A stretch of 64,000 nt of DNA from an uncultured Flavobacteriaceae bacterium (GTDB lineage Bacteria; Bacteroidota; Bacteroidia; Flavobacteriales; Flavobacteriaceae), in the NCBI GenBank assembly GCA_947497145.1, contig CANMFQ010000019.1, positions 1 to 64,000 on the forward strand. Reading direction: 5' to 3'. Below are positions 660 to 33,189 of this stretch, piece by piece. Made by a program: the position numbers and the translations under genes. Under the pieces are notes generated by a model. That model worked only from the letters and a program-made list of their open reading frames with translations, was not told the origin of the DNA and did no database searches. Numbering within the stretch: the first letter of the stretch is position 1; each line of letters opens with the position of its first letter.

Positions 660-1220
660 AACGCTCACAAAACCATACGTGATCGTCATGCATCATACAG
701 CTTATGCTCAGGTGTTATTGGGCATAAATTGTGTACTGGTGAAACTTGTTTTTTTGAAATTGATGATTTTGGAGATTTTAACAGCGCACCAATCCTCAAG
801 CCTGGTGATACCAATTATAATGATTTATGGAGTAGTCCTGCTCAAATAGCAGGAGAGTTTAATTGCGTTAATTGCCATATAGCAACGCCATTTATTCATA
901 CTCCTGCTGTTGATCAACTTACAAATCCTGTAACTACTTCAGAATTGATGATGCCAATAACGGGGTTAAACCCATATTGGGTTGTTGGGCAAGGGTGGCC
1001 ACAAACGCCTTCAACTACTACTCAAAACTCTTGCACCACATGCCACCGTCAAGCGTGTACAGAACATTTTCAAAACTACCCATTAGATGAATTAGTAATG
1101 CCAGCACCTTTTGAAAATGCTACCGATTTTGACCATAGCAATATTTCTAATGCAGATAGACAAGCCATTAGAAATTGGTGTAACACTTTAAATTTAGGTT
1201 TTGGTGTTAATGATGATTAA
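660..1220 (+). pseudogene. 5'-truncated copy of the dihaem lipoprotein gene
   Basis: From about 711 this frame matches the C-terminal half of the intact protein at 1623-2480: GVIGHK..TGETC, then CVNCH (haem motif 1), FIHTPA, CTTCH (haem motif 2) and an almost identical last 55 residues. There is no signal peptide and no credible start: the frame opens after a TAA at 657-659 and its first possible initiator is a TTG at 729. The region 660-710 does not match the parent gene, so the left junction lies there. It is most simply a remnant of a tandem duplication. Expression from an alternative start cannot be excluded, but the product would stay in the cytoplasm, where haem is not attached. Confidence 0.75.
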
Positions 1221-1235
1221 AAGTAGAAAAACTAT

Positions 1236-1268
1236 ATGAAAAAATTAACAACCACCACTCAATATTAA
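1236..1268 (+). pseudogene. remnant of the second cytochrome lipoprotein's start
   Basis: Ten codons (MKKLTTTTQY then TAA), preceded by a tagaaaaactat spacer, match the start and upstream spacer of the monohaem lipoprotein at 2522. This shows that the duplicated unit included both genes and was cut here on its right side. Confidence 0.5.
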
Positions 1269-1398: not shown

Positions 1399-1614
1399 AT
1401 GAAAAAGCTATCAATAATTTTTGTGTTGTTTTTGTCATTTACATCTTCAAAAAACGACAATTCTTCTGAAACAACACAAAACTATAATATAGTGGATGAT
1501 ACATTTACAGCGCTATTTACACCCAACTTTAGTGACCTTGTTTTATCTGAGGATAATGGAGGGGCTGAAATTTCAATGACAAAAAAAATACAAAATCTTA
1601 AGGAGATTAAATAA
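1399..1614 (+). CDS. small exported protein, possibly a decayed lipoprotein
   Basis: The 71-residue product starts with a good signal sequence (MKKLSIIFVLFLSFTSS) followed by an Asn/Ser/Thr-rich stretch. Where related flavobacterial lipoproteins have a lipobox Cys before Lys-Asn-Asp, this one has Ser (FTSSKND), so it could not be lipidated. The rest (NIVDDTFTALFTPNFSDLVL) has no family I recognise. It ends eight bases before the dihaem lipoprotein, so it may be the first gene of that operon or the stub of a broken gene. It has no CxxCH motif. Confidence 0.45.
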   Translation: MKKLSIIFVLFLSFTSSKNDNSSETTQNYNIVDDTFTALFTPNFSDLVLSEDNGGAEISMTKKIQNLKEIK

Positions 1615-1622
1615 CTTAAAAA

Positions 1623-2480
1623 ATGAACAGAAATTTAATTTTTTTATTAGTATTTGTTGTTGTTAGTTGCACTAGTCACGATATTACATCAAATTCTGTA
1701 CCCAGTCTAAATCGTACTGCTGAGGATCATGCATATGAATGTGAAGACGTTTTAGGACCACTTCCCAGATTTAGTTGTGCTGATGCAATTGAAGTGCCAA
1801 CCACTAAAGACGGTGTTCCTGTAACATTTCCTGAAGGAGAAGAAGGTAATGGGAGTACAAATCCTAGTGATTGTGACCATCCTTGGGCTTTTGGCATGGC
1901 ATGTCAAACAGGAAACAGGGTAGGCAGATACCAAGGCTTGAATATTGATGGAAGTGAAAATACAGATGTGGTTTTTATCACTTTTTGCAGAGATGGAGGA
2001 CTCGGGGTTATAGGCTATAAGTTTTCTACTGGAGAAACCTGTTTATTTTCTATTATTGATGGTGCCGATTCAAATAATACGCCACTTCCGGGTGAAACAG
2101 GATATAATGATTCATGGATGAGCCCACAAGTAGTGGCTGATGATCGATGTGTGAATTGTCATATGGCTGATCCTTTTATTCATACGCCGGCAATAGATCA
2201 GTTAAGAATACCAAATACAGAAGCGTTATTAGTTCCTATTACAGGTAAGGGGCAATACAGTATTATTGGAGCTGAATTTCAACAACCTTTTACAACTAAT
2301 ATTCAAAACTCTTGCACTACTTGCCACCGTCCTGCGTGTACAGAACATTTTCAAAACTATCCATTAGATGAATTAGCAATGCCCGCACCTTTTGAAAATG
2401 CTACCGATTTTGATCATAGCAATATTTCTAATGCAGATAGACAGGCCATTAGAGATTGGTGTGCAACGCTCGGATTATAA
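1623..2480 (+). CDS. dihaem c-type cytochrome-like lipoprotein
   Basis: The 285-residue product has a lipoprotein signal with lipidation Cys at residue 16 (VVVSC). Its N-terminal half is Cys-rich (residues 40, 52, 84, 94, 122, 140) and could be disulfide-bonded. It has two covalent haem motifs, CVNCH at 176-180 and CTTCH at 231-235. A nearby Met-rich stretch (LAMPAPFENA) could supply an axial ligand. I infer an electron carrier anchored on the periplasmic side of a membrane. It lies 41 bases upstream of a monohaem lipoprotein and heads a chain with YceI, OB-fold and DUF5777 genes. A half-length copy sits just upstream (660-1220). The N-terminal half matches no family I recognise. Confidence 0.8.
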   Translation: MNRNLIFLLVFVVVSCTSHDITSNSVPSLNRTAEDHAYECEDVLGPLPRFSCADAIEVPTTKDGVPVTFPEGEEGNGSTNPSDCDHPWAFGMACQTGNRVGRYQGLNIDGSENTDVVFITFCRDGGLGVIGYKFSTGETCLFSIIDGADSNNTPLPGETGYNDSWMSPQVVADDRCVNCHMADPFIHTPAIDQLRIPNTEALLVPITGKGQYSIIGAEFQQPFTTNIQNSCTTCHRPACTEHFQNYPLDELAMPAPFENATDFDHSNISNADRQAIRDWCATLGL

Positions 2481-2521
2481 GGTTTTGATAATAATGATAA
2501 TTAATAATAGAAAAACTAAAT

Positions 2522-2872
2522 ATGAAAAAATTAATAACAACCTCTAGTATTATGTTGCTAATACTATCAAGTTGCTCAAAAGGTTATATTCCTATAACAG
2601 AAACACCACCCGCACCATCAGGACCTATTAGCTATCAAACTGATATTGGTCCTGTAATTGCTTCTAGGTGTTTAGGCTGCCATAATACTAACGACCCACA
2701 AGGTAATTTAACATTAGAAAACTATAGTCAAGTGCGTAATTCGGCAGAAAACGGCACCCTTATTCAACGCATCAATGACGCCGCAAATCCTATGCCTAGA
2801 TCAGGTTTAATGCCTGCAGCTACGAGAATGCTTTTTGATGAATGGGTAAGTAATGGCTATTTAGAAAACTAA
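2522..2872 (+). CDS. monohaem c-type cytochrome lipoprotein
   Basis: The 116-residue product has a lipobox at LLILSSC (Cys18), a Pro-rich linker, and one haem motif CLGCH at 50-54 inside the usual IGPVIASRC context of small cytochrome c domains. Downstream MPRSGLMP (residues 91-98) supplies the likely distal Met ligand. It ends with the LFDEWVSNGY helix common in cytochrome domains that sense or relay electrons at the cell surface. Its stop codon overlaps the start of the YceI gene (TAATG), so the two are probably translationally coupled. Partner and substrate are unknown. The haem assignment is firm. Confidence 0.85.
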   Translation: MKKLITTSSIMLLILSSCSKGYIPITETPPAPSGPISYQTDIGPVIASRCLGCHNTNDPQGNLTLENYSQVRNSAENGTLIQRINDAANPMPRSGLMPAATRMLFDEWVSNGYLEN

Positions 2873-3423
2873 TGGATATGAAAAGTATTAGTATTATTAT
2901 TTTCTGTTTTATGACGGCATTACAACTTAATGCCCAAAAATATTTTACGCGTACGGGGGTTACTCAATTTGAAGCTTCCGAAAAAGCTTTTGAGCCTATT
3001 GCCGCAACCAATAAAAGTACAACTGTACTATTAAATACGAACACTGGTGCGATAGCGGCACAGGTGTTTATGGCAGGTTTTCAATTTAAAAATGCGCTAA
3101 TGCAAGAGCATTTTAATGAGAATTACATGGAAAGTCATAAATACCCTAAAGCGACCTTTAAAGGAGAATTACAAGATTTTTCGAATGAAAATCTAAAACG
3201 CAATAGCAGCTTTGAACTAAGTGGAACACTCAGCGTTAAAGGTGTTGAAAAAGAGATTGAAACCACCGTTACTGTAAAAGAAGAAAACAATCGAATTTAC
3301 ATATCAGGTAGTTTTTATGTAAGTCCAAATGATTTCGGCATTAAGATTCCTTCTATTGTTCGAGAAAAAATTGCCCAACAAATTCAAATTAGCATTGCAT
3401 ATGAGCTTACTGAAAAAAAATAA
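2872..3423 (+). CDS. YceI family periplasmic protein
   Basis: The 183-residue product has a signal peptide cleaved after LNAQ (about residue 21) and the YceI beta-barrel pattern: FEASEKAFEPI, FKNALMQEHFNENYMES, YPKATFKG and LSGTLSVKGVEKEI, ending with IQISIAYEL. YceI proteins bind isoprenoid or quinone-like lipids in a hydrophobic pocket, and some are linked to respiration. Next to two cytochrome lipoproteins, I infer a role in quinone or redox handling in the envelope. The start at 2872 overlaps the upstream stop. A second ATG two codons later (2878) is an equally good start. Confidence 0.88.
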   Translation: MDMKSISIIIFCFMTALQLNAQKYFTRTGVTQFEASEKAFEPIAATNKSTTVLLNTNTGAIAAQVFMAGFQFKNALMQEHFNENYMESHKYPKATFKGELQDFSNENLKRNSSFELSGTLSVKGVEKEIETTVTVKEENNRIYISGSFYVSPNDFGIKIPSIVREKIAQQIQISIAYELTEKK

Positions 3424-3796
3424 AGGGGCATTTAGTATAGCCTTACTAGCCATCATAGCAATAGGGTTATGGACTAGTTATCAATATGTGTTCGCAGCTC
3501 CCGCTAAAACAAATGAAATAACGGCAACCTATACCGGAGCGGCAGACGAATTTAAATATTTGGTTACCGAAAACCCTGCTAGTTGGTCACAAAAAATTGT
3601 TCAGTTAAAAGGAACAGTAACAGCGATAAATGAAGAAGGAATTTTACTTAATGGCACTATATATTGCCAATTTGAAAACAAGCAAAATTTACAATCAATC
3701 AGCAAAAACCAAAGTGTTGTCATCAAAGGAAAATATGTTGGTTTTGATGAATTATTAATGGAAATAAAAATAAATCAATGTATTATCATTCAATAA
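3401..3796 (+). CDS. membrane-anchored OB-fold (tRNA_anti-like) protein
   Basis: I start it at the ATG at 3401, inside the end of the YceI gene, because this puts a clean anchor directly at the N-terminus (MSLLKKNKGAFSIALLAI). The longer frame from 3329 only reads YceI codons. The 131-residue product has one membrane segment (about 10-28), then a small beta domain (IVQLKGTVTAINEEGILLNGTIYCQFE and VVIKGKYVGFD) typical of the tRNA_anti-like OB fold in Bacteroidota. Such proteins occur beside YceI and DUF5777 genes. Their function is not known. It overlaps both neighbours, so the operon is tight. Confidence 0.75.
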   Translation: MSLLKKNKGAFSIALLAIIAIGLWTSYQYVFAAPAKTNEITATYTGAADEFKYLVTENPASWSQKIVQLKGTVTAINEEGILLNGTIYCQFENKQNLQSISKNQSVVIKGKYVGFDELLMEIKINQCIIIQ

Positions 3797-4659
3797 AAAA
3801 AGCGTTTTTAATACCCGTATTATTAATAATACCTTTCTTGTGTAATGCTCAAGAAGATGATTTGCTACAAGAGTTGGATAATTTAAACCAAAATGAAACC
3901 ACATATGAACTACCTGCTTTTAAGGCGCTTCAAATCGGGAATTTACAATCTACTAAAGTCGTTGACAAAGGTGATTTATACCTTGTGGTAGCACATCGTT
4001 TTGGATACCTTAAAGAAGGAATTAAGGAGTTTTTTGGACTCGATCAAGCCAATACAAAAATTCAATTACTATATGGTCTGTTACCTAATTTACAAATAGG
4101 TGTTAGTAGAGACAGTTACGAAAAAACCTACTCAGGTACTGCTAAATACAAGCTGTACAGGCAATCGGATAAAATTCCTGTTAATGTTTCGCTTTATGGC
4201 AGTGTAGATATAAATACAGTGTTAAAAAAAAGTACCTACCCAGGCTTAAAAACATTTGATCCATTTTCATACACTACCCAAATATTGGTATCAAGGCGTT
4301 TTTCTGAAAAACTATCTTTAGAATTAGCGCCCATTTTTGTACGTCATAATCTACAAGATTTAAATTTTACCCAAACACAGACTCACAATCAAATTCTTTT
4401 AGGACTGGGTGGTCGCTATAAAATTTCTAAAAGACTAAGCATAAATGCAGATTACGCCTATAATTTTAGCAAAGACAGCAATTCATCCTATAAAAATCCA
4501 TTTACTGTTGGGGTAGATATTGAAACTGGCGGACACGTTTTTCAATTATTATTTACCAACGCAAGAGCTAGTAGCGATGCTTCATTCTTAACTGAAACAC
4601 TTGGCGACTGGTCAAAAAATGAAATTTCGTTTGGGTTTAACATCGTGCGTGTATTTTAG
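3778..4659 (+). CDS. DUF5777 family outer-membrane beta-barrel
   Basis: The 293-residue product has a signal peptide ending CNAQ (about residue 24), then KALQIGNLQSTKVVDKGDLYLVVAHRFG. That segment is the hallmark start of the DUF5777 barrel family, with alternating amphipathic strands to a C-terminal aromatic (IVRVF). Such barrels sit in the outer membrane and are often encoded beside c-type cytochromes and YceI proteins in Bacteroidota. By context I infer a porin-like partner for the cytochrome lipoproteins upstream. The start overlaps the end of the OB-fold gene by 19 bases. It is probably the last gene of the operon. Confidence 0.85.
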   Translation: MYYHSIKKAFLIPVLLIIPFLCNAQEDDLLQELDNLNQNETTYELPAFKALQIGNLQSTKVVDKGDLYLVVAHRFGYLKEGIKEFFGLDQANTKIQLLYGLLPNLQIGVSRDSYEKTYSGTAKYKLYRQSDKIPVNVSLYGSVDINTVLKKSTYPGLKTFDPFSYTTQILVSRRFSEKLSLELAPIFVRHNLQDLNFTQTQTHNQILLGLGGRYKISKRLSINADYAYNFSKDSNSSYKNPFTVGVDIETGGHVFQLLFTNARASSDASFLTETLGDWSKNEISFGFNIVRVF

Positions 4660-25601: not shown

Positions 25602-28601
25602 ATGACCAGAAACACACTAAATAAAACCATTAAAATTAGAATTCTATCCATAGTTATAATGCTTATTGTGGGAATTGGCAATACTGTAATCGCTCAGCAA
25701 CAAGACACCATTTATTTCAATACACATTGGAATCCCACAACCAAAATAAAGGCTGTGTATTACAGACTAAAACCCGCACCTAAAGTTGGTGATTTATATC
25801 ATATTCAAGATTTTTATATCAACGGCGCATTACAAATGGATGGGTATTCTGTTAAACAAGACGAAGATGCATTTCATGGTCAGGTGATTTGGTATTATAA
25901 ACATGGTACACCAAAAAACATTCGGCATTACAATAAAGGAAAGCTAGAAGGGAAATCCCAATCCTTTTTTTCTAACGGCAGTTTACAAGCAGAAGGAGTG
26001 ATTAAAGACAATCAATATTGGAATGGAAGTTTCGAAATTTCATCTTCATCAGAGGGCTATAAAACCAAAGTGTATCAAGATGGGTGTTTAAAAGCGAAAC
26101 ATCAGTATTATAAAGACAATTTTTCAATTGCTTCAACCTTAAATTTCAATTGTAGTAATTATCATACTTCCGAAGTATTTTACGATAAAAATGGTAAAGA
26201 AATCAGTCAATTAATTTATGATAATTCTAACAATAAACCTATTCCTCTTTCTGGAACGGAGCAATTATTTATTTTAGATAACGAAGAGTTTGTGCTTAAA
26301 AGTATTGGCACTAGAAGCTTTTCGGGTAATAAAGACCTACAACATGTAAAAACAAAATTAGCGGTACTTACCGATACCCTTAGAGGCACTAACAAATCAG
26401 GCTATAGGTTTGAAGGGACCTTTTATACAAACGGAAAAATTGTAAATTTTGTAAACAAAAAGAAAGAAGGAGAAACACAATGCTGTTTTAATGCAAGCCA
26501 TATTAAAGCTAAAGGTGTTTATAAAAACAACCAAAAGCATCATGGCACATTTTATAACCCAAGAACCAACACTATTAGCAGTTATAAAAACGGTTATCGA
26601 GATGGTGCACAAATCACCTATGATGCAGCTGGAGATGTGATTAAACAAGAAACTTTTAAAGAGGGTAAACGTGATGGACTGTTTATTACACATAATCCAT
26701 TTACCAAAACAAAACACCAATGTATTTATAAAAACAATTATCCGTTTGAAGGCGAAGAATTGCAATACAATACATTAACCAACTATATGAATGGTAAACG
26801 TATTGAGATCACTGAATATGATTATGATACCCACCAACCAATTTCTAAAACACGTTACGACTTGGAAGACAAATATAAAATCACTTCTAAAACCATTTAT
26901 GACCAAGGCAATAGTTATGCGCTAGAATACAAAAATGGTATGCCTTTTAAAGGTATTGAAAAAAATAACAACGGATTTAAAACTTTTGCCAATGGAGAAG
27001 CTACTGGACCCTATGAAATTTTTGCAAAAAACTATTTAGAAACCGGGCAGTATATTGCTTATAATAAACACGGATTAATAACCATAAAACTAAAAGACCG
27101 CACATTGCAATGTGTTTACGATAATGGAAAACCCATAAACGGTGTAGACTACAATAGCTTATCAGGTCAACAAATCACCTATACTAATGGAATTAAAAAT
27201 GGTTTAAACATAGAAACACGTAAAAATATAGCAGCCTACGATTCGTTAACACGTTATTATAAAAACAATAAGCCTGTTGGTAAACTACTGTATTTTAAAA
27301 ATGGAACACTAGTCAATACCAGCAGTTATAAGAACGGAAAACCTTACAACGGAACATTTTACCAATACAATAGCACTAAAACATATAAAAAAGGCAAGCT
27401 TGTAGAATCTGTTATCAATGATGAACATTATGGATTTAAGCAACATTTCTATTATAGTAATGATGGTGTTTCCAAATTAAAGACCACTAATACAAAAGAT
27501 AGTATTACCTATACCTTAAGTTATAATAATAGAAGTCCGTTTCAGGGACATTTCTTTGGAAAGTTGCCGTCTACAATAAATTATATTCTTACACCATATG
27601 AAAAAGGAAAAAAACATGGAGAAGAAATAGTATATACACATCCGTTTAAAGATATAAGCTATACCCAAAATTACATTCAGGGCATAAAAGAAGGAACGAG
27701 TAGCTATTATTTTAAAGGACAAATTTTTGAAGGTACTTATAAAAACGATTTACCTTACGATGGTGATATCGGATTAGCCTATTCTGAAAAAGATATCCTT
27801 TGTGTTTCCCAATACATAAAAGGAAAAGCACAGCAGCAAAATTGTTTTGATAACAATAAATATGAGAGTAGAGTGGATACCATTTTCTCGGGAACATATA
27901 AAAATGGCAAGCCATATTCAGGAGTTTTCATCAATAAAAACCGTTATCATGTAGCGGCAAAAACGTATGAAGAAGGAAAGCTTCAAAAAACCTTTGTAAA
28001 TCCATTAAAATATAAATACTTAAGAGCTTCACTAAATATTAGTCACCATAAACAAACTGATTCTATTGTAAATAAACGATTGTATACTGCAGTAGTTCAT
28101 TATACTAATGATGAAAAAACGAGTGGTCATGCCATATATAAAAACAGTAAAGACGAAACTATTGGAACTATTCGTTTTAATAACGGAAGCCTTACAGATG
28201 CAGATTTATCTCTTTTAGTAGGCCAAAGTCCTGTATCACTCAAAACAAACAACGCCTCAACGGTAGTTTTACATGTTGAATCTGTTAATGGTATTCAAGC
28301 ACGAGCAGAAGCTTCTGTTCATTTAAATAAAAAGTTACATCTATTTCTATATGATGTACTGAGTTATTTTCAAAAACGACCATCGGCAAAATTGAGGTTT
28401 TATAATATAAAAACGAGCAAAAAATTGTTAGAAATAACTTTTAAAGAAGGAAAACCTTATCATGGCACCATGCCTCAACTTCAAGCATTCAACAAAGAGT
28501 TAAGTCAGAATATTGAATTAAAAACCTATGTTTCTGGAATTTTGAAAACGCGAAAAAGTATTCCTCTTGAGGATTTTTTAAAAGGGAAATTTAAACAATG
28601 A
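25602..28601 (+). CDS. giant secreted MORN/YwqK-repeat protein 1
   Basis: The 999-residue product has a signal peptide ending VIAQ (about residue 30), then repeating Y-K-N-G-K-P-F-x-G units throughout (at least nine, such as YKNGMPFKGIE, YKNGKPYNGTF, YKNGKPYSGVF) with intervening YxNGxxxG MORN-like words. Repeats of this type build beta-strand arrays. YwqK is the short namesake. The protein is predicted to be exported, with no membrane anchor visible. No enzyme domain is seen. It is translationally coupled (ATGA) to the 524-residue gene and paired with a paralogue at 30172. Confidence 0.8.
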   Translation: MTRNTLNKTIKIRILSIVIMLIVGIGNTVIAQQQDTIYFNTHWNPTTKIKAVYYRLKPAPKVGDLYHIQDFYINGALQMDGYSVKQDEDAFHGQVIWYYKHGTPKNIRHYNKGKLEGKSQSFFSNGSLQAEGVIKDNQYWNGSFEISSSSEGYKTKVYQDGCLKAKHQYYKDNFSIASTLNFNCSNYHTSEVFYDKNGKEISQLIYDNSNNKPIPLSGTEQLFILDNEEFVLKSIGTRSFSGNKDLQHVKTKLAVLTDTLRGTNKSGYRFEGTFYTNGKIVNFVNKKKEGETQCCFNASHIKAKGVYKNNQKHHGTFYNPRTNTISSYKNGYRDGAQITYDAAGDVIKQETFKEGKRDGLFITHNPFTKTKHQCIYKNNYPFEGEELQYNTLTNYMNGKRIEITEYDYDTHQPISKTRYDLEDKYKITSKTIYDQGNSYALEYKNGMPFKGIEKNNNGFKTFANGEATGPYEIFAKNYLETGQYIAYNKHGLITIKLKDRTLQCVYDNGKPINGVDYNSLSGQQITYTNGIKNGLNIETRKNIAAYDSLTRYYKNNKPVGKLLYFKNGTLVNTSSYKNGKPYNGTFYQYNSTKTYKKGKLVESVINDEHYGFKQHFYYSNDGVSKLKTTNTKDSITYTLSYNNRSPFQGHFFGKLPSTINYILTPYEKGKKHGEEIVYTHPFKDISYTQNYIQGIKEGTSSYYFKGQIFEGTYKNDLPYDGDIGLAYSEKDILCVSQYIKGKAQQQNCFDNNKYESRVDTIFSGTYKNGKPYSGVFINKNRYHVAAKTYEEGKLQKTFVNPLKYKYLRASLNISHHKQTDSIVNKRLYTAVVHYTNDEKTSGHAIYKNSKDETIGTIRFNNGSLTDADLSLLVGQSPVSLKTNNASTVVLHVESVNGIQARAEASVHLNKKLHLFLYDVLSYFQKRPSAKLRFYNIKTSKKLLEITFKEGKPYHGTMPQLQAFNKELSQNIELKTYVSGILKTRKSIPLEDFLKGKFKQ

Positions 28602-30172
28602 AAACACATCAAAACAGTTTACTAAAACCTGTCATTTTCTGTTTGCTTTGCCTGACTTCGATGGCTTATGCAAAAACCAACAAACCAATAACTATGGAAC
28701 AATCTCTAGATACAATAATCGCTACAGAAGTCATTTCAAAAGTGATCAACCATCAGATAAATGAAACCAGCCAGTTCAAGTTTAATTATAAGGTAAGTAA
28801 TAGAAATTTAGGCGTTCCCTATAGCATACAACCCGAATGGATTGGCGATATTAATAACGATAATGAAAACGATGTGGTCTTTACGTATCAGGATGTGTTT
28901 CGTATAGGTGCTATGCATCTTATATTGGTTGAAATAAAAGGTGCTAAACTACATAAGCTTCATAAAATAGTGACCTATAATATGCAGGGAAATTTTATTT
29001 TTAAACCTCAAACCATTTCAAATGCGTTGCTAAGTATTGATGTTTTAGAGCGTTCAGAAAACACAGATGTGCTATCAGAAGTAATTCAACTAGAATTTTA
29101 TATTGAAGATGGAGATCTATTAGAAAAAAGCAATTCTGCTTGTCCTGTTTCAGCTTTAGGCAAGCCACTTTTTAAAGATGAATCGGGGGTTGCTATTAAA
29201 CGTGAACAGTTTTTAAATGCTCATTTTAATACTGTTTTTGTTGAACGGTATAAATCAAAAGAAGCACCATTAGCAATGGAAGCACTTCGTACGGGATGCG
29301 AAAACACCATCTTAAATTTCACTATTATACGTCCTTTCGACGAAAACGAATTTCATTTTAAAGCTGAGGATAGTACAGCTCTTATACACGATAAATTATA
29401 CGAATTACGACAACAACAACGCCAACAACTCATTACCTATCTGTATGATAATTTAAAGGAGTTAAAACGAAAAACATATTACAATAAACTCATTAAAAAA
29501 AGCTTGAAAGCGCTTAAAAAAGCCGATTTTAATAGGCTGGTACTAACTCAAAAGGATTGTTATATTTCCCTTTCGTTAAAAAACGATTGGCGAGTAACTT
29601 TTGGTATTGGTAAAGATTCTAATCGAAATTTTAATTTAATCGCTAATCAAGGAGATGCAAAAAACGAACAAAATTGCAAGCTATTAGAAATTTTTAAACG
29701 AAAAAATAAACTTAAAAATGGCGAAAAACTAGCGCCCATTTCAATAGAAGAAACCAACGAACAACTGCAAGGTTTGTCTGCTTTTTTTAAGCAAATAAGT
29801 GAAGCTTTTCTTTCTAAAAAGAATTCTGAAATTATGGCGCTAATTGATGAAAACTACAAATTAGAACAACACGATAAGATGCTAAAAGGCAATACCAAGC
29901 AGTTTTTAAGTGAGCTTACAACAATGCCATATTACAATGCAAAAACCTATTCTATTATTGACCTGGCAACCGATATAAACCTAAAACAAATTGAAACTTT
30001 TGAGCTTTTAGATTGGGACTTCGACAAACAAAGTTCGTTTCAAAACGGATTGGGTAATGTCTTGTTTTATGTAAAAACGAAGCAAAAAAGCTATCAAATA
30101 GCGATTGCGTTTATCTATTATAAAGATGAACACGATAAGACCATATTTAAAATTTCAGGAGGAATGGGCTAA
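28598..30172 (+). CDS. uncharacterised secreted protein, GDINNDNENDV motif
   Basis: The 524-residue product has a signal peptide ending AYAK (about residue 26). Near residues 85-100 lies IGDINNDNENDVVFTYQ, a Ca-loop-like motif of FG-GAP/VCBS proteins (D-x-N-x-D-x-x-D). The rest is a charged helical region (RQQQRQQLITYLYDNLKELKR) and a C-terminal beta domain ending KISGGMG. No enzyme motif is seen. Its stop overlaps the next gene's ATG (TAATG), and its start overlaps the previous stop, so the three make one coupled unit. I could not place it in a family. Confidence 0.7.
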   Translation: MKTHQNSLLKPVIFCLLCLTSMAYAKTNKPITMEQSLDTIIATEVISKVINHQINETSQFKFNYKVSNRNLGVPYSIQPEWIGDINNDNENDVVFTYQDVFRIGAMHLILVEIKGAKLHKLHKIVTYNMQGNFIFKPQTISNALLSIDVLERSENTDVLSEVIQLEFYIEDGDLLEKSNSACPVSALGKPLFKDESGVAIKREQFLNAHFNTVFVERYKSKEAPLAMEALRTGCENTILNFTIIRPFDENEFHFKAEDSTALIHDKLYELRQQQRQQLITYLYDNLKELKRKTYYNKLIKKSLKALKKADFNRLVLTQKDCYISLSLKNDWRVTFGIGKDSNRNFNLIANQGDAKNEQNCKLLEIFKRKNKLKNGEKLAPISIEETNEQLQGLSAFFKQISEAFLSKKNSEIMALIDENYKLEQHDKMLKGNTKQFLSELTTMPYYNAKTYSIIDLATDINLKQIETFELLDWDFDKQSSFQNGLGNVLFYVKTKQKSYQIAIAFIYYKDEHDKTIFKISGGMG

Positions 30173-33100
30173 TGGGAAAACGAACACACATCATAACTCT
30201 ATTAATAATTATGGTACTTGGCAAGACATTACATTCGCAAACAGTAAAAGACACGGTGTACTTTGATGCAAATGGGTATATGGTTGATAAAGCCATTGCG
30301 CATCACTATCTTTTAATTCCTATGGAAAAAGAAAAAGAGTTGTACCGAATGACCAAAAAATACTTAAACGGAAAAACGTATAAGGATGGCTTAACCCCAA
30401 ATCCGTATCATAATTTTGAAATATATGAAGGCCTAGTAACAACGTATCATCCTAACGGAACCATTAAATCTACAGCAGAATATAAAAACTACAAGTATCA
30501 CGGACGCCTAGAATGGTTTAACGAAAGCGGACAAAACATAGCATCTGGAATTGCTGAAAGCGGAAATTTTACAGACGGCACATTCTTTATCGAAAACGAC
30601 TTTAAACACTATTTATTAACGGTTAAAAACAATCAAATTATAACTAAAATTTTCAGCTATGCCAACGGAAAAAAGGCACAGATAGATTATTTCAATAAAA
30701 GCAATGTTTGCGAAACTACCGAATATTTCAATCTGCAAGGCGATAGCTTAGGAAGTCTAGCATATCATACCAACCCCAATGCTGTTCGCGAATCTGGAAC
30801 TAAAGTCGATTTTCATTTTCAGCATAAAATGGTTGCTTTTATAAAAGCAATAAGCACTTATAACACCGTGGGTAACCTAACAGAAATACTTACTAAAACA
30901 CCAAAGGGCAAAACTTTAGCAAAAGGAACTTACAACAGAACAACGGCACAATATTCTGGAAGCATTTATGAACAAGGTAACATTACCGTTTACAAAGAAA
31001 ATACACCCACAAAGGTTACCTTTTACAAACCCAATGGCGAAGCTCTAGCAGTGGGCGTTTTTAAAGACGCGTATCCCTACAATGGCACTTTCTGCTCTGA
31101 AATCTTTCAGTTTTCAGGAAAATCGACACCACCAAAACATCAAATTGTTTGCAAAACCTACAAAAATGGAGTTCTAGAAGGAAAACAAATTACTTACAAC
31201 CCTAATTTTAAAGTAGAAGCATATACCACATATAAGGCTGGTAATATTGAAGGCGAAGCAATGTCTACGAGTATTTATACAGGAAAACAGCATAAAATAA
31301 TCTACAAAAACGGAAAGCCTTTTGAGGGAGACGAAATCAATTTAAGTATAAATAGCTATAAAGAAGGGCTTTTAGTAGAAAAAAAGGAATTCGATTTTGA
31401 CACGAATCAGTTATCTAAAATTAGTTATTACAATACTAATAAAGAATTGATAAAAGTGAAGCAAAAATATAAGCAAAACTGGTACGAAGCCATTTATAAA
31501 TCTGGAAAGCTATTTGAAGGTTATGAAGCGACTTCTAAAAATGTTACGGCCTATAAAAACGGAGAAAAAAATGGTAAATTTATACAAGAATCCTACCATT
31601 TAATCACCCAAGGCAATTACGAAAACGGAATGTTAAACGGTGTTGTAACGTATTTTAGAAAACAGCGTAAAGACACATTGTCTTGCCTATTTAAAAAGGA
31701 TAACCCTGTAGAAGGTCTCAAGGTAGAACACTTTAACCCCAATTTTATTACTACCTATAAAAACAAAGTAAAACACGGCAAGGAAGTTACGCATTTAAAA
31801 TCCTATTTTTCTAAATGCGATGCTGTAGAACGTTATTTTGAAAAAGGGTATCCAACAGGCATTAGCACTTATTTTAAAGACGAAAAACCAATAGCAACTC
31901 TAACATACAAAAACCATATACCTTATGATGGCGTTTTGCTTGGGAAACGTTTTAAGAAAGAATTTAAAAACGGACAATTGGTTTTAGAATCTAAAATAAT
32001 TTCATCATCATTTGTTGAAACCACGTATTATAAAATGAATACCATCGTGAAGCGGGAATATACACTGCCTCGATTTGACGAACCCGCTTATACTATAATT
32101 TACAAAAACGGAAAACCTTTTCAAGGTACTCTGGTATATTTTGATTCCGAAGCCAAAACCACAAGATTTTCTCAGTATAAGAATTTTAAAAAAGAAGGTA
32201 AAGAGCAACTTAAATTAAAAGTACATAAAGACACGATAAGTATAGAACAATTTTATGTGTCTGAAAAACAAGAAGGAGCATCTCATTTTATTTTTGGTGA
32301 AGAAAATGAAAATCACCGTGGCATTTATAAAAACGGTAATCCTCAAAACGGTCAGTTTTTAGAACTTTTAGACGCCGAATTAATTGCTATTGCTCAGTAT
32401 AAAAATAACGAATGCTTAAAAAAAGTATTTTATTTTCCACACAAACCTAATAAGGTTGTAGACTCCATTATCTATAAAAACAATATGCCTTTTGAAGGTG
32501 TAAATTACGCCTTTTTCAATAAAATGAAATTGAAGCAATATGTTACAAAAGGCATAAAAACCAAAACAGAGGCAAGGTATGTTTATGATTTTTCAGAGAA
32601 TGCTATAGAAATTCATCACAAACCATTAGTAGACAGTATTTATAGCAGTCGCTGTTTTTATCCTAATGCAGAGGTAGCTTTTACAGATAGTAGTCTAAAA
32701 AGTGGCCGTGTAGATTTTTCTAAAGACGACAAATCCTTAGGTTTTCTGGTGTTTAAAGACCGTGTACTTAAAGATATTCAGCTTGAATATGTTTGTAATA
32801 AGCAAACCATAAGTGTAACAATGCATTCTAATACTAGCGTTAGCATAACAGGAAATGAGCTAAATACAGCAAATTTAACCTATAAAACAATAGTGTCTTC
32901 TGCTTTCTTTATCCCCGAAGACATGCACAATTTATATGTGAATTTTCCATTTATTAATCCTTCAAAATCTGAGATAATCAGCTATGAATATTATCTAAAT
33001 GATTTGCCTAATCCCATTGCAGAAATAACAATGCAAAACGGCAAATATCATTCAGGAGATTTTATTAGCTACGATAGTTTTAATAAAACATATGTGTATC

Positions 33101-33189
33101 GCGTATATTTTAACGGTGAGAATATCATTGTAATTAAAAATTTATCTCTCGAAGATTTAGAAGCGATGTATCAAGAAAAGCAGCATTAA
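30172..33189 (+). CDS. giant secreted MORN/YwqK-repeat protein 2
   Basis: The 1005-residue product is a paralogue of the 25602 protein. It has a signal peptide ending LHSQ (about residue 23) and at least eight YKNGKPFEG-like units (YKNGKPFEGDE, YKNGKPFQGTL, YKNNMPFEGVN, FKKDNPVEGLK), with the same YxNG tandem texture. Near the C-terminus both proteins carry an NNGSL/FKDRVLKD-type beta region. The ATG overlaps the previous stop. Twin giant repeat proteins around a third secreted protein suggest a surface or secreted complex. No enzyme domain is seen. Confidence 0.8.
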   Translation: MGKRTHIITLLIIMVLGKTLHSQTVKDTVYFDANGYMVDKAIAHHYLLIPMEKEKELYRMTKKYLNGKTYKDGLTPNPYHNFEIYEGLVTTYHPNGTIKSTAEYKNYKYHGRLEWFNESGQNIASGIAESGNFTDGTFFIENDFKHYLLTVKNNQIITKIFSYANGKKAQIDYFNKSNVCETTEYFNLQGDSLGSLAYHTNPNAVRESGTKVDFHFQHKMVAFIKAISTYNTVGNLTEILTKTPKGKTLAKGTYNRTTAQYSGSIYEQGNITVYKENTPTKVTFYKPNGEALAVGVFKDAYPYNGTFCSEIFQFSGKSTPPKHQIVCKTYKNGVLEGKQITYNPNFKVEAYTTYKAGNIEGEAMSTSIYTGKQHKIIYKNGKPFEGDEINLSINSYKEGLLVEKKEFDFDTNQLSKISYYNTNKELIKVKQKYKQNWYEAIYKSGKLFEGYEATSKNVTAYKNGEKNGKFIQESYHLITQGNYENGMLNGVVTYFRKQRKDTLSCLFKKDNPVEGLKVEHFNPNFITTYKNKVKHGKEVTHLKSYFSKCDAVERYFEKGYPTGISTYFKDEKPIATLTYKNHIPYDGVLLGKRFKKEFKNGQLVLESKIISSSFVETTYYKMNTIVKREYTLPRFDEPAYTIIYKNGKPFQGTLVYFDSEAKTTRFSQYKNFKKEGKEQLKLKVHKDTISIEQFYVSEKQEGASHFIFGEENENHRGIYKNGNPQNGQFLELLDAELIAIAQYKNNECLKKVFYFPHKPNKVVDSIIYKNNMPFEGVNYAFFNKMKLKQYVTKGIKTKTEARYVYDFSENAIEIHHKPLVDSIYSSRCFYPNAEVAFTDSSLKSGRVDFSKDDKSLGFLVFKDRVLKDIQLEYVCNKQTISVTMHSNTSVSITGNELNTANLTYKTIVSSAFFIPEDMHNLYVNFPFINPSKSEIISYEYYLNDLPNPIAEITMQNGKYHSGDFISYDSFNKTYVYRVYFNGENIIVIKNLSLEDLEAMYQEKQH

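Follow-up and report, generated by a model that had tools for sequence, protein, structure and literature searches.

A haem-protein operon of an uncultured Flavobacteriaceae bacterium as a candidate envelope redox module of the YceI-DUF5777 type

What might a bacterium do with five adjoining genes for two haem lipoproteins, a YceI-family protein, an OB-like protein and a DUF5777 outer-membrane barrel? Such a set lies near the start of contig CANMFQ010000019.1 (assembly GCA_947497145.1) of an uncultured Flavobacteriaceae bacterium, of which positions 1 to 64,000, called the window here, were analysed. A preliminary description made from the letters alone had proposed an electron path from the periplasm to the outer membrane or a haem-dependent sensor, and had found no known family for the Cys-rich N-terminus of the protein with two haem motifs (the dihaem protein). 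Starting from gene content, conservation, homology, the predicted size of the barrel and decay in the window, we give about even odds (roughly 50%) to the reading that the locus is an envelope redox module, namely a subtype of the Bacteroidia YceI-DUF5777 operon to which a dihaem cytochrome has been added, its function being one that we infer.

The coordinates (Table 1) agree with the earlier account of five genes in the same direction, four of them overlapping: on the + strand, the chain of one-haem, YceI, OB and DUF5777 genes overlaps by 1, 23 and 19 nt, and 41 nt separate the dihaem gene from the one-haem gene. Two haem lipoproteins, a YceI protein and a DUF5777 barrel had also been called correctly. 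The dihaem protein has the lipobox VVSC and CxxCH codons at 2148-2162 and 2313-2327, and the one-haem protein has the lipobox LSSC, CxxCH at 2669-2683 and a match to PSCyt1 that places it in that family (24.4 bits, cut-off 22). The YceI protein likewise belongs to its family (59.2 bits, cut-off 23.7), as does the DUF5777 protein (274.5 bits, cut-off 23.1). The OB-like protein, the start of which was picked by homology with locus L044, matches the tRNA_anti-like OB fold weakly (15.9 bits, under the cut-off of 23.5), and its homologue in L077 scores 38.6 bits. All five genes are intact, with signal peptides and haem motifs kept. An Rfam scan and a plasmid DNA search gave no match, and promoter and terminator scans gave chance level only.

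The four genes that follow the dihaem gene have a wide distribution. Of 395 Bacteroidia genomes, 343 contain a DUF5777 match above the family cut-off. Seventy-five neighbourhoods were picked, not at random, from the listed best-scoring DUF5777 matches, and one without a DUF5777 call (L167) was excluded to leave 74. BLAST clusters of the first 20 contained YceI in 18, a one-haem cytochrome in 18 and an OB-like protein in 13; in the 74 DUF5777 gene runs (same strand, gaps under 200 bp), a cytochrome was found in 61, YceI in 55 and the OB protein in 28. Judged by gene content and homology, the four-gene core in the window is one version of an old, class-wide operon of Bacteroidia. Our main reason for reading this core as redox is that its haem protein is joined or replaced by other redox proteins: plastocyanin-family cupredoxins in L098, L101, L148 (one of two over the cut-off) and L162 (both), Rieske proteins in L081 and L138, a P460 cytochrome beside L084 on the opposite strand, a DOMON match below the cut-off in L102, and cbb3-type cytochromes in the neighbourhoods of L072, L108, L146 and L166. 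It looks as if the redox carriers of DUF5777 operons were exchangeable.

Also, we noticed that core cytochromes beside DUF5777 often have CX3CH, not CX2CH (e.g., L076:5671-6048, L070:6879-7286 and L094:7371-7763), a haem motif termed atypical in the accessible part of one paper (PMC6295460); 27 of 104 profile matches among core cytochromes were without CxxCH, and 26 of these 27 had C-X3 to 5-CH. The genome studied here has four YceI genes (G000:C11, C10, C2 and C19), and only that of the window is in a DUF5777 operon, since the genome has a single DUF5777.

The dihaem gene, by comparison, was found in only four of the 395 Bacteroidia genomes, our own included, one of these being truncated; in G063 (L006, the same gene as L058), the N-terminal 109 residues only are present. 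A fifth match in the raw tally (G313/L007; 33% over 45 residues, E 0.001) had only the signal region in common with the dihaem protein and was removed as spurious; we take it to be a thioredoxin-like lipoprotein. Among 197 relatives, the gene was seen only in our genome and in two distant cases at 36% identity, and in a phylum draw of 296 genomes only in our genome; scanning viral sequences with the dihaem profile yielded no match. A scan of a named genome collection, furthermore, gave 17 dihaem loci, 61-84% identical and mostly in metagenome bins of Flavobacteriales and Saprospiraceae; two more come from bins assigned to Akkermansiaceae and to Myxococcota, and the Akkermansiaceae copy is likely mis-binned because it is nearly identical to that of L053. 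DUF5777 lies near the dihaem gene in six of the 17: L042-L045 have dihaem, one-haem, YceI, OB and DUF5777 in this order, L047 has the dihaem gene beside a core without YceI and OB, and L053 has the core 2.3 kb upstream. The five-gene set of the window is therefore not a chance one, given that four further loci repeat all five genes and their order and that the cores are class-wide. The expectation that neighbourhood surveys would find the genes together thus held for the core genes, which usually are, and failed for the dihaem gene, which is rarely with them.

In the DUF5777 tree, the protein of the window groups with those of L042-L045 and L047 in a single clade (support 100/100), whose sister is DUF5777 from the same family; L053 falls outside this clade. 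Horizontal transfer of the dihaem operon into our genome was suggested by patchiness (the dihaem gene in none of 13 genus mates; DUF5777 in three of 13 genus genomes, our own included) and was not borne out by a comparison of identities. To L042, L043, L044, L045, L047 and L046, the dihaem protein of the window is 85, 85, 85, 75, 72 and 73% identical and fumarase 87, 86, 89, 74, 72 and 79%; since the former values track the latter, descent with many losses would fit as well as transfer. In the dihaem tree, most inner branches (12 of 15) stayed open.

A gene for a membrane AraC-type regulator lies upstream of the dihaem gene, adjacent to it or separated by one small gene, in nine of the 17 loci (L042-L045 and L050-L054), which represent about five lineages because L042-L044 and L052-L054 are close relatives. 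The regulators of L044 and L050 are over the cut-offs of HTH_18 and HTH_AraC, whole copies have four to seven transmembrane-like stretches, and full-length ones are 32-54% identical between lineages. No first dihaem copy in these nine loci looks damaged; elsewhere, copies have a stop (L048), a frameshift (L055), a stop and a lost haem His (L056) or a truncation (L058), possibly by assembly error. L042-L045, L047 and L051 also have a gene for a lipocalin-like or DUF5004-type lipoprotein near the dihaem gene; four of these proteins were scanned, and only those of L047 and L051 were over a cut-off. Tandem dihaem genes, the first with extra Cys-rich N-terminal repeats, were seen in L053:4545-6576 and L054:1246-3429.

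To what family does the dihaem protein belong? No match of note was obtained in Pfam, NCBIfam, PHROG or PDB sequences, which is in line with the earlier impression of an unfamiliar N-terminus; the full protein did not match the known dihaem families DHC (PF09626) and CCP/MauG, and the truncated copy in the window (see below) reached 15.2 bits with DHC, under the cut-off of 22.2. A translated plasmid search gave four records with 24-27% identity over 71-78% of the length. In Salipiger abyssi and Burkholderia pyrrocinia the annotation places the gene of the relative third, behind those of a molybdopterin-binding large subunit and a 2Fe-2S subunit, and BLAST found the same order in B. arboris and Rhizobium sp. 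CCGE532. The order of molybdenum-cofactor subunit, 2Fe-2S subunit and cytochrome was thus present in four of the four close proteobacterial loci read (L063, L064, L065 and L091). When a profile of 16 rows from Bacteroidota-type loci was aligned with one of four proteobacterial rows by hhalign, the match (probability 99.3, E 6.9e-21, 207 columns) covered the Cys-rich N-terminal half and both haem motifs; in a 7-row alignment, the haem motifs and C52, C84, C94 and C122 were invariant. Because of this profile match the N-terminus is not an orphan, and by profile comparison it belongs to an old cytochrome family that has neither a name nor a Pfam or NCBIfam profile. Periplasmic molybdenum hydroxylases have a general subunit layout that includes a cytochrome subunit, and from gene order the proteobacterial members would be this subunit. 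No paper on NicB-type enzymes turned up in the open-access library searched. Two molybdenum hydroxylase operons with an FAD (flavin adenine dinucleotide)-type subunit were also seen in our genome (G000:C13, ~28-31 kb and 64-68 kb; L092 and L093); from our reading of the gene layout they are presumably CO-dehydrogenase-like.

The barrel bears on the proposed electron path. An AlphaFold2 model of DUF5777, built with seven sequences, had 12 strands with a predicted local distance difference test score (pLDDT) of 70, and its nearest folds were the small barrels FapF (Z 18.9; 213 residues at a root-mean-square deviation (rmsd) of 3.5) and KdgM (Z 18.0; 166 residues at an rmsd of 2.2). MtrB, as far as its description in PMC5971433 is accessible, is a 28-strand barrel holding a decahaem cytochrome; given 12 predicted strands against 28, a haem protein within the DUF5777 barrel is, by the model, unlikely. 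No MtrB-like chain was among the 50 matches shown in each of two listings, an absence that proves nothing. The idea of an envelope redox operon is supported by the class-wide core, in which a redox protein, seemingly exchangeable, is nearly always found; that of a path through the barrel is not supported, the predicted barrel being too small and the haem proteins having one and two haem motifs. No function of DUF5777 turned up in print in the open-access library searched, and hence no known alternative one, which would have counted against the preliminary description.

Two elements beyond the earlier list, furthermore, lie upstream of the operon (Table 1), and the module in the window is partly decayed. 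The stretch with a truncated second dihaem gene (711-1267) aligns to 2004-2552; as read from 60-column blocks of two alignments, a stretch of ~120 bp close to the 3' end of the gene for the dihaem protein is 92-95% identical and the remainder 52-84%, which suggests that the two copies have recombined. Of a lipocalin-like lipoprotein gene, complete in L044, the middle part is missing here. The membrane AraC-type regulator is not at its usual place in the window, the contig beginning at window base 1, and its closest match elsewhere in our genome is 28% identical.

YceI proteins are already known to pair with cytochromes in redox systems. The available text of PMC9113575 describes solved YceI lipocalins as mostly carrying an isoprenoid, sometimes ubiquinone-8, and pairs a YceI protein with cytochrome b561 in BcnA-LcoA, with b561 proposed to re-reduce BcnA; as in the window, the YceI gene adjoins a cytochrome gene, but this is a membrane b561 cytochrome, and the operon as described there has no barrel. 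In Cbp2D of Cellvibrio japonicus, a ubiquinone-8-binding YceI domain comes with two small c-type cytochrome domains, in the envelope or outside; from one of these cytochrome domains, lytic polysaccharide monooxygenases receive electrons in vitro (PMC8981238). Cbp2D is, however, a single multidomain protein with a carbohydrate-binding module, and the accessible part of its description names no DUF5777, OB or dihaem-family protein. Operons of periplasmic xanthine-dehydrogenase (XDH)-family molybdenum hydroxylases in Salipiger, Burkholderia and Rhizobium share with the window a homologue of the dihaem protein, encoded by their third gene, four such proteins making up the proteobacterial profile matched above.

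How, then, might such a module work? Quinone binding, electron transfer among these proteins, its direction and regulation are put here conditionally. The one-haem lipoprotein would be an electron carrier and YceI would hold an isoprenoid, for instance a quinone, and this pair would probably swap electrons at the boundary of the periplasm and the outer membrane, while the 12-strand barrel would be a small channel or anchor, not a haem-filled conduit, and the OB protein a membrane-anchored accessory. The dihaem lipoprotein may be an electron relay of the kind that periplasmic molybdenum hydroxylases feed in Proteobacteria; its donor or acceptor in Bacteroidota would be a different one, and electrons may pass between it and the one-haem cytochrome. 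Where a locus is complete, the membrane AraC-type regulator probably controls the dihaem gene.

Several observations weigh against this reading. YceI is missing from 19 and the cytochrome from 13 of the 74 DUF5777 gene runs; 11 of the 17 dihaem loci are without DUF5777 in their vicinity (some of the contigs are short), and nearly all DUF5777 operons have no adjoining dihaem gene. Unlike the XDH-family operons, no Bacteroidota dihaem gene seen, that of the window included, has a molybdenum or 2Fe-2S subunit gene beside it. Matches to the partner's large subunit occur in three of 13 dihaem genomes and are partial (26-31%), and those in our own genome are partial (23-31%) and in operons with an FAD-type subunit. 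The Rhizobium leguminosarum relative (L066, the fourth plasmid record) has no molybdenum genes beside it, and the fold prediction of the dihaem protein is of low confidence (pLDDT 48.7). YceI proteins, moreover, bind non-redox-active molecules too. The open-access library searched held no experiment on any DUF5777 operon and no paper with the term DUF5777, nor a record of a class-wide DUF5777 operon with exchangeable redox proteins or of the dihaem family.

Alternatively, quinone-loaded YceI might quench radicals in the outer membrane, with a c-type cytochrome re-reducing it as b561 may do for BcnA. The joint operon of YceI and cytochrome does resemble BcnA-LcoA in the accessible account (PMC9113575), yet no cytochrome b561, beside YceI or otherwise, was among the scanned operon proteins of the window, and the barrel, OB protein and dihaem protein would have no role, so that we consider such a defence against lipid peroxyl radicals unlikely. 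High-potential c-type cytochromes, in addition, would rather accept electrons. An outward conduit, with DUF5777 and the cytochromes assembled into a porin-cytochrome complex passing electrons from the periplasm to outside acceptors, is quite improbable. Cytochrome lipoproteins are encoded beside an outer-membrane barrel, as in MtrCAB, and DUF5777 has a weak MtrB_PioB match (17.0 bits, below the cut-off of 23); the 28-strand barrel and decahaem cytochromes of MtrCAB, in the part of PMC5971433 at hand, nonetheless differ from a predicted 12-strand barrel and proteins with two and one CxxCH, none of them a multihaem cytochrome able to fill it, and some core operons have a cupredoxin or Rieske protein.

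The recurrent regulator would fit a redox or haem sensor, in which the dihaem and lipocalin-like lipoproteins signal to the membrane AraC-type regulator and this switches the operon; indeed, the regulator is upstream in about five lineages, and two of its loci (L050 and L051) have no DUF5777 near. It is missing from the window, however, the dihaem genes of L046 and L049 are intact with no regulator near, and upstream genes are often plain regulators of the adjoining gene, which leaves this haem-dependent sensor as improbable as the conduit. A mixed arrangement seems distinctly unlikely as well, though less so: the regulator, the lipocalin-like lipoprotein and the dihaem protein would be a surface unit detecting a redox-active or hydrophobic compound, joined to the YceI-DUF5777 operon in one lineage, with the dihaem protein both sensing and exchanging electrons. 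Finally, the locus in the window might be a non-functional relic, as the truncated duplicate, the decayed lipocalin-like gene, the missing regulator and the damaged copies in L048, L055, L056 and L058 would allow; the intact state of the five main genes and their identity to L042-L044 (85% for the dihaem and 82-84% for the DUF5777 protein) make this highly improbable.

Table 1. Positions of the features discussed, in the window unless a locus is named (aa, amino acids; ORF, open reading frame)
Feature	Position	Strand	Basis
Dihaem, Cys-rich lipoprotein, unnamed family, 285 aa, two CxxCH	1623..2480	+	16-row alignment, profile match
One-haem c-type cytochrome lipoprotein, PSCyt1-like, 116 aa	2522..2872	+	PF07635, CxxCH, homologues
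YceI-family lipocalin-like protein, signal peptide, 183 aa	2872..3423	+	PF04264
Membrane-anchored OB-like protein, 131 aa	3401..3796	+	PF12869 over cut-off in homologue L077, not here
DUF5777 outer-membrane beta-barrel, 293 aa	3778..4659	+	PF19089
Truncated second dihaem gene, C-terminal part (ORF 729-1220), and first bases of second one-haem gene (ATG 1236)	711..1267	+	
Decayed lipocalin-like lipoprotein gene, internal deletion, lipobox Cys to Ser	1399..1614	+	aligned with L044:7578-7994
Cupredoxin genes inside DUF5777 operons	L098:4222-4797, L101:5007-5594, L148:6896-7947, L162:3404-4377		
Rieske genes inside DUF5777 operons	L081:9093-9527, L138:6225-6671		

Elsewhere in the window, two long adjoining proteins of ~1000 residues with recurring short motifs are encoded at 25602-33189.

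In conclusion, DUF5777, which is common in the sampled Bacteroidia genomes and has no assigned function, would through its operon context become an envelope redox module that can be tested. The dihaem family, a group of cytochromes still outside the Pfam and NCBIfam profiles, would in turn link DUF5777 operons to the molybdenum enzymes of Proteobacteria.

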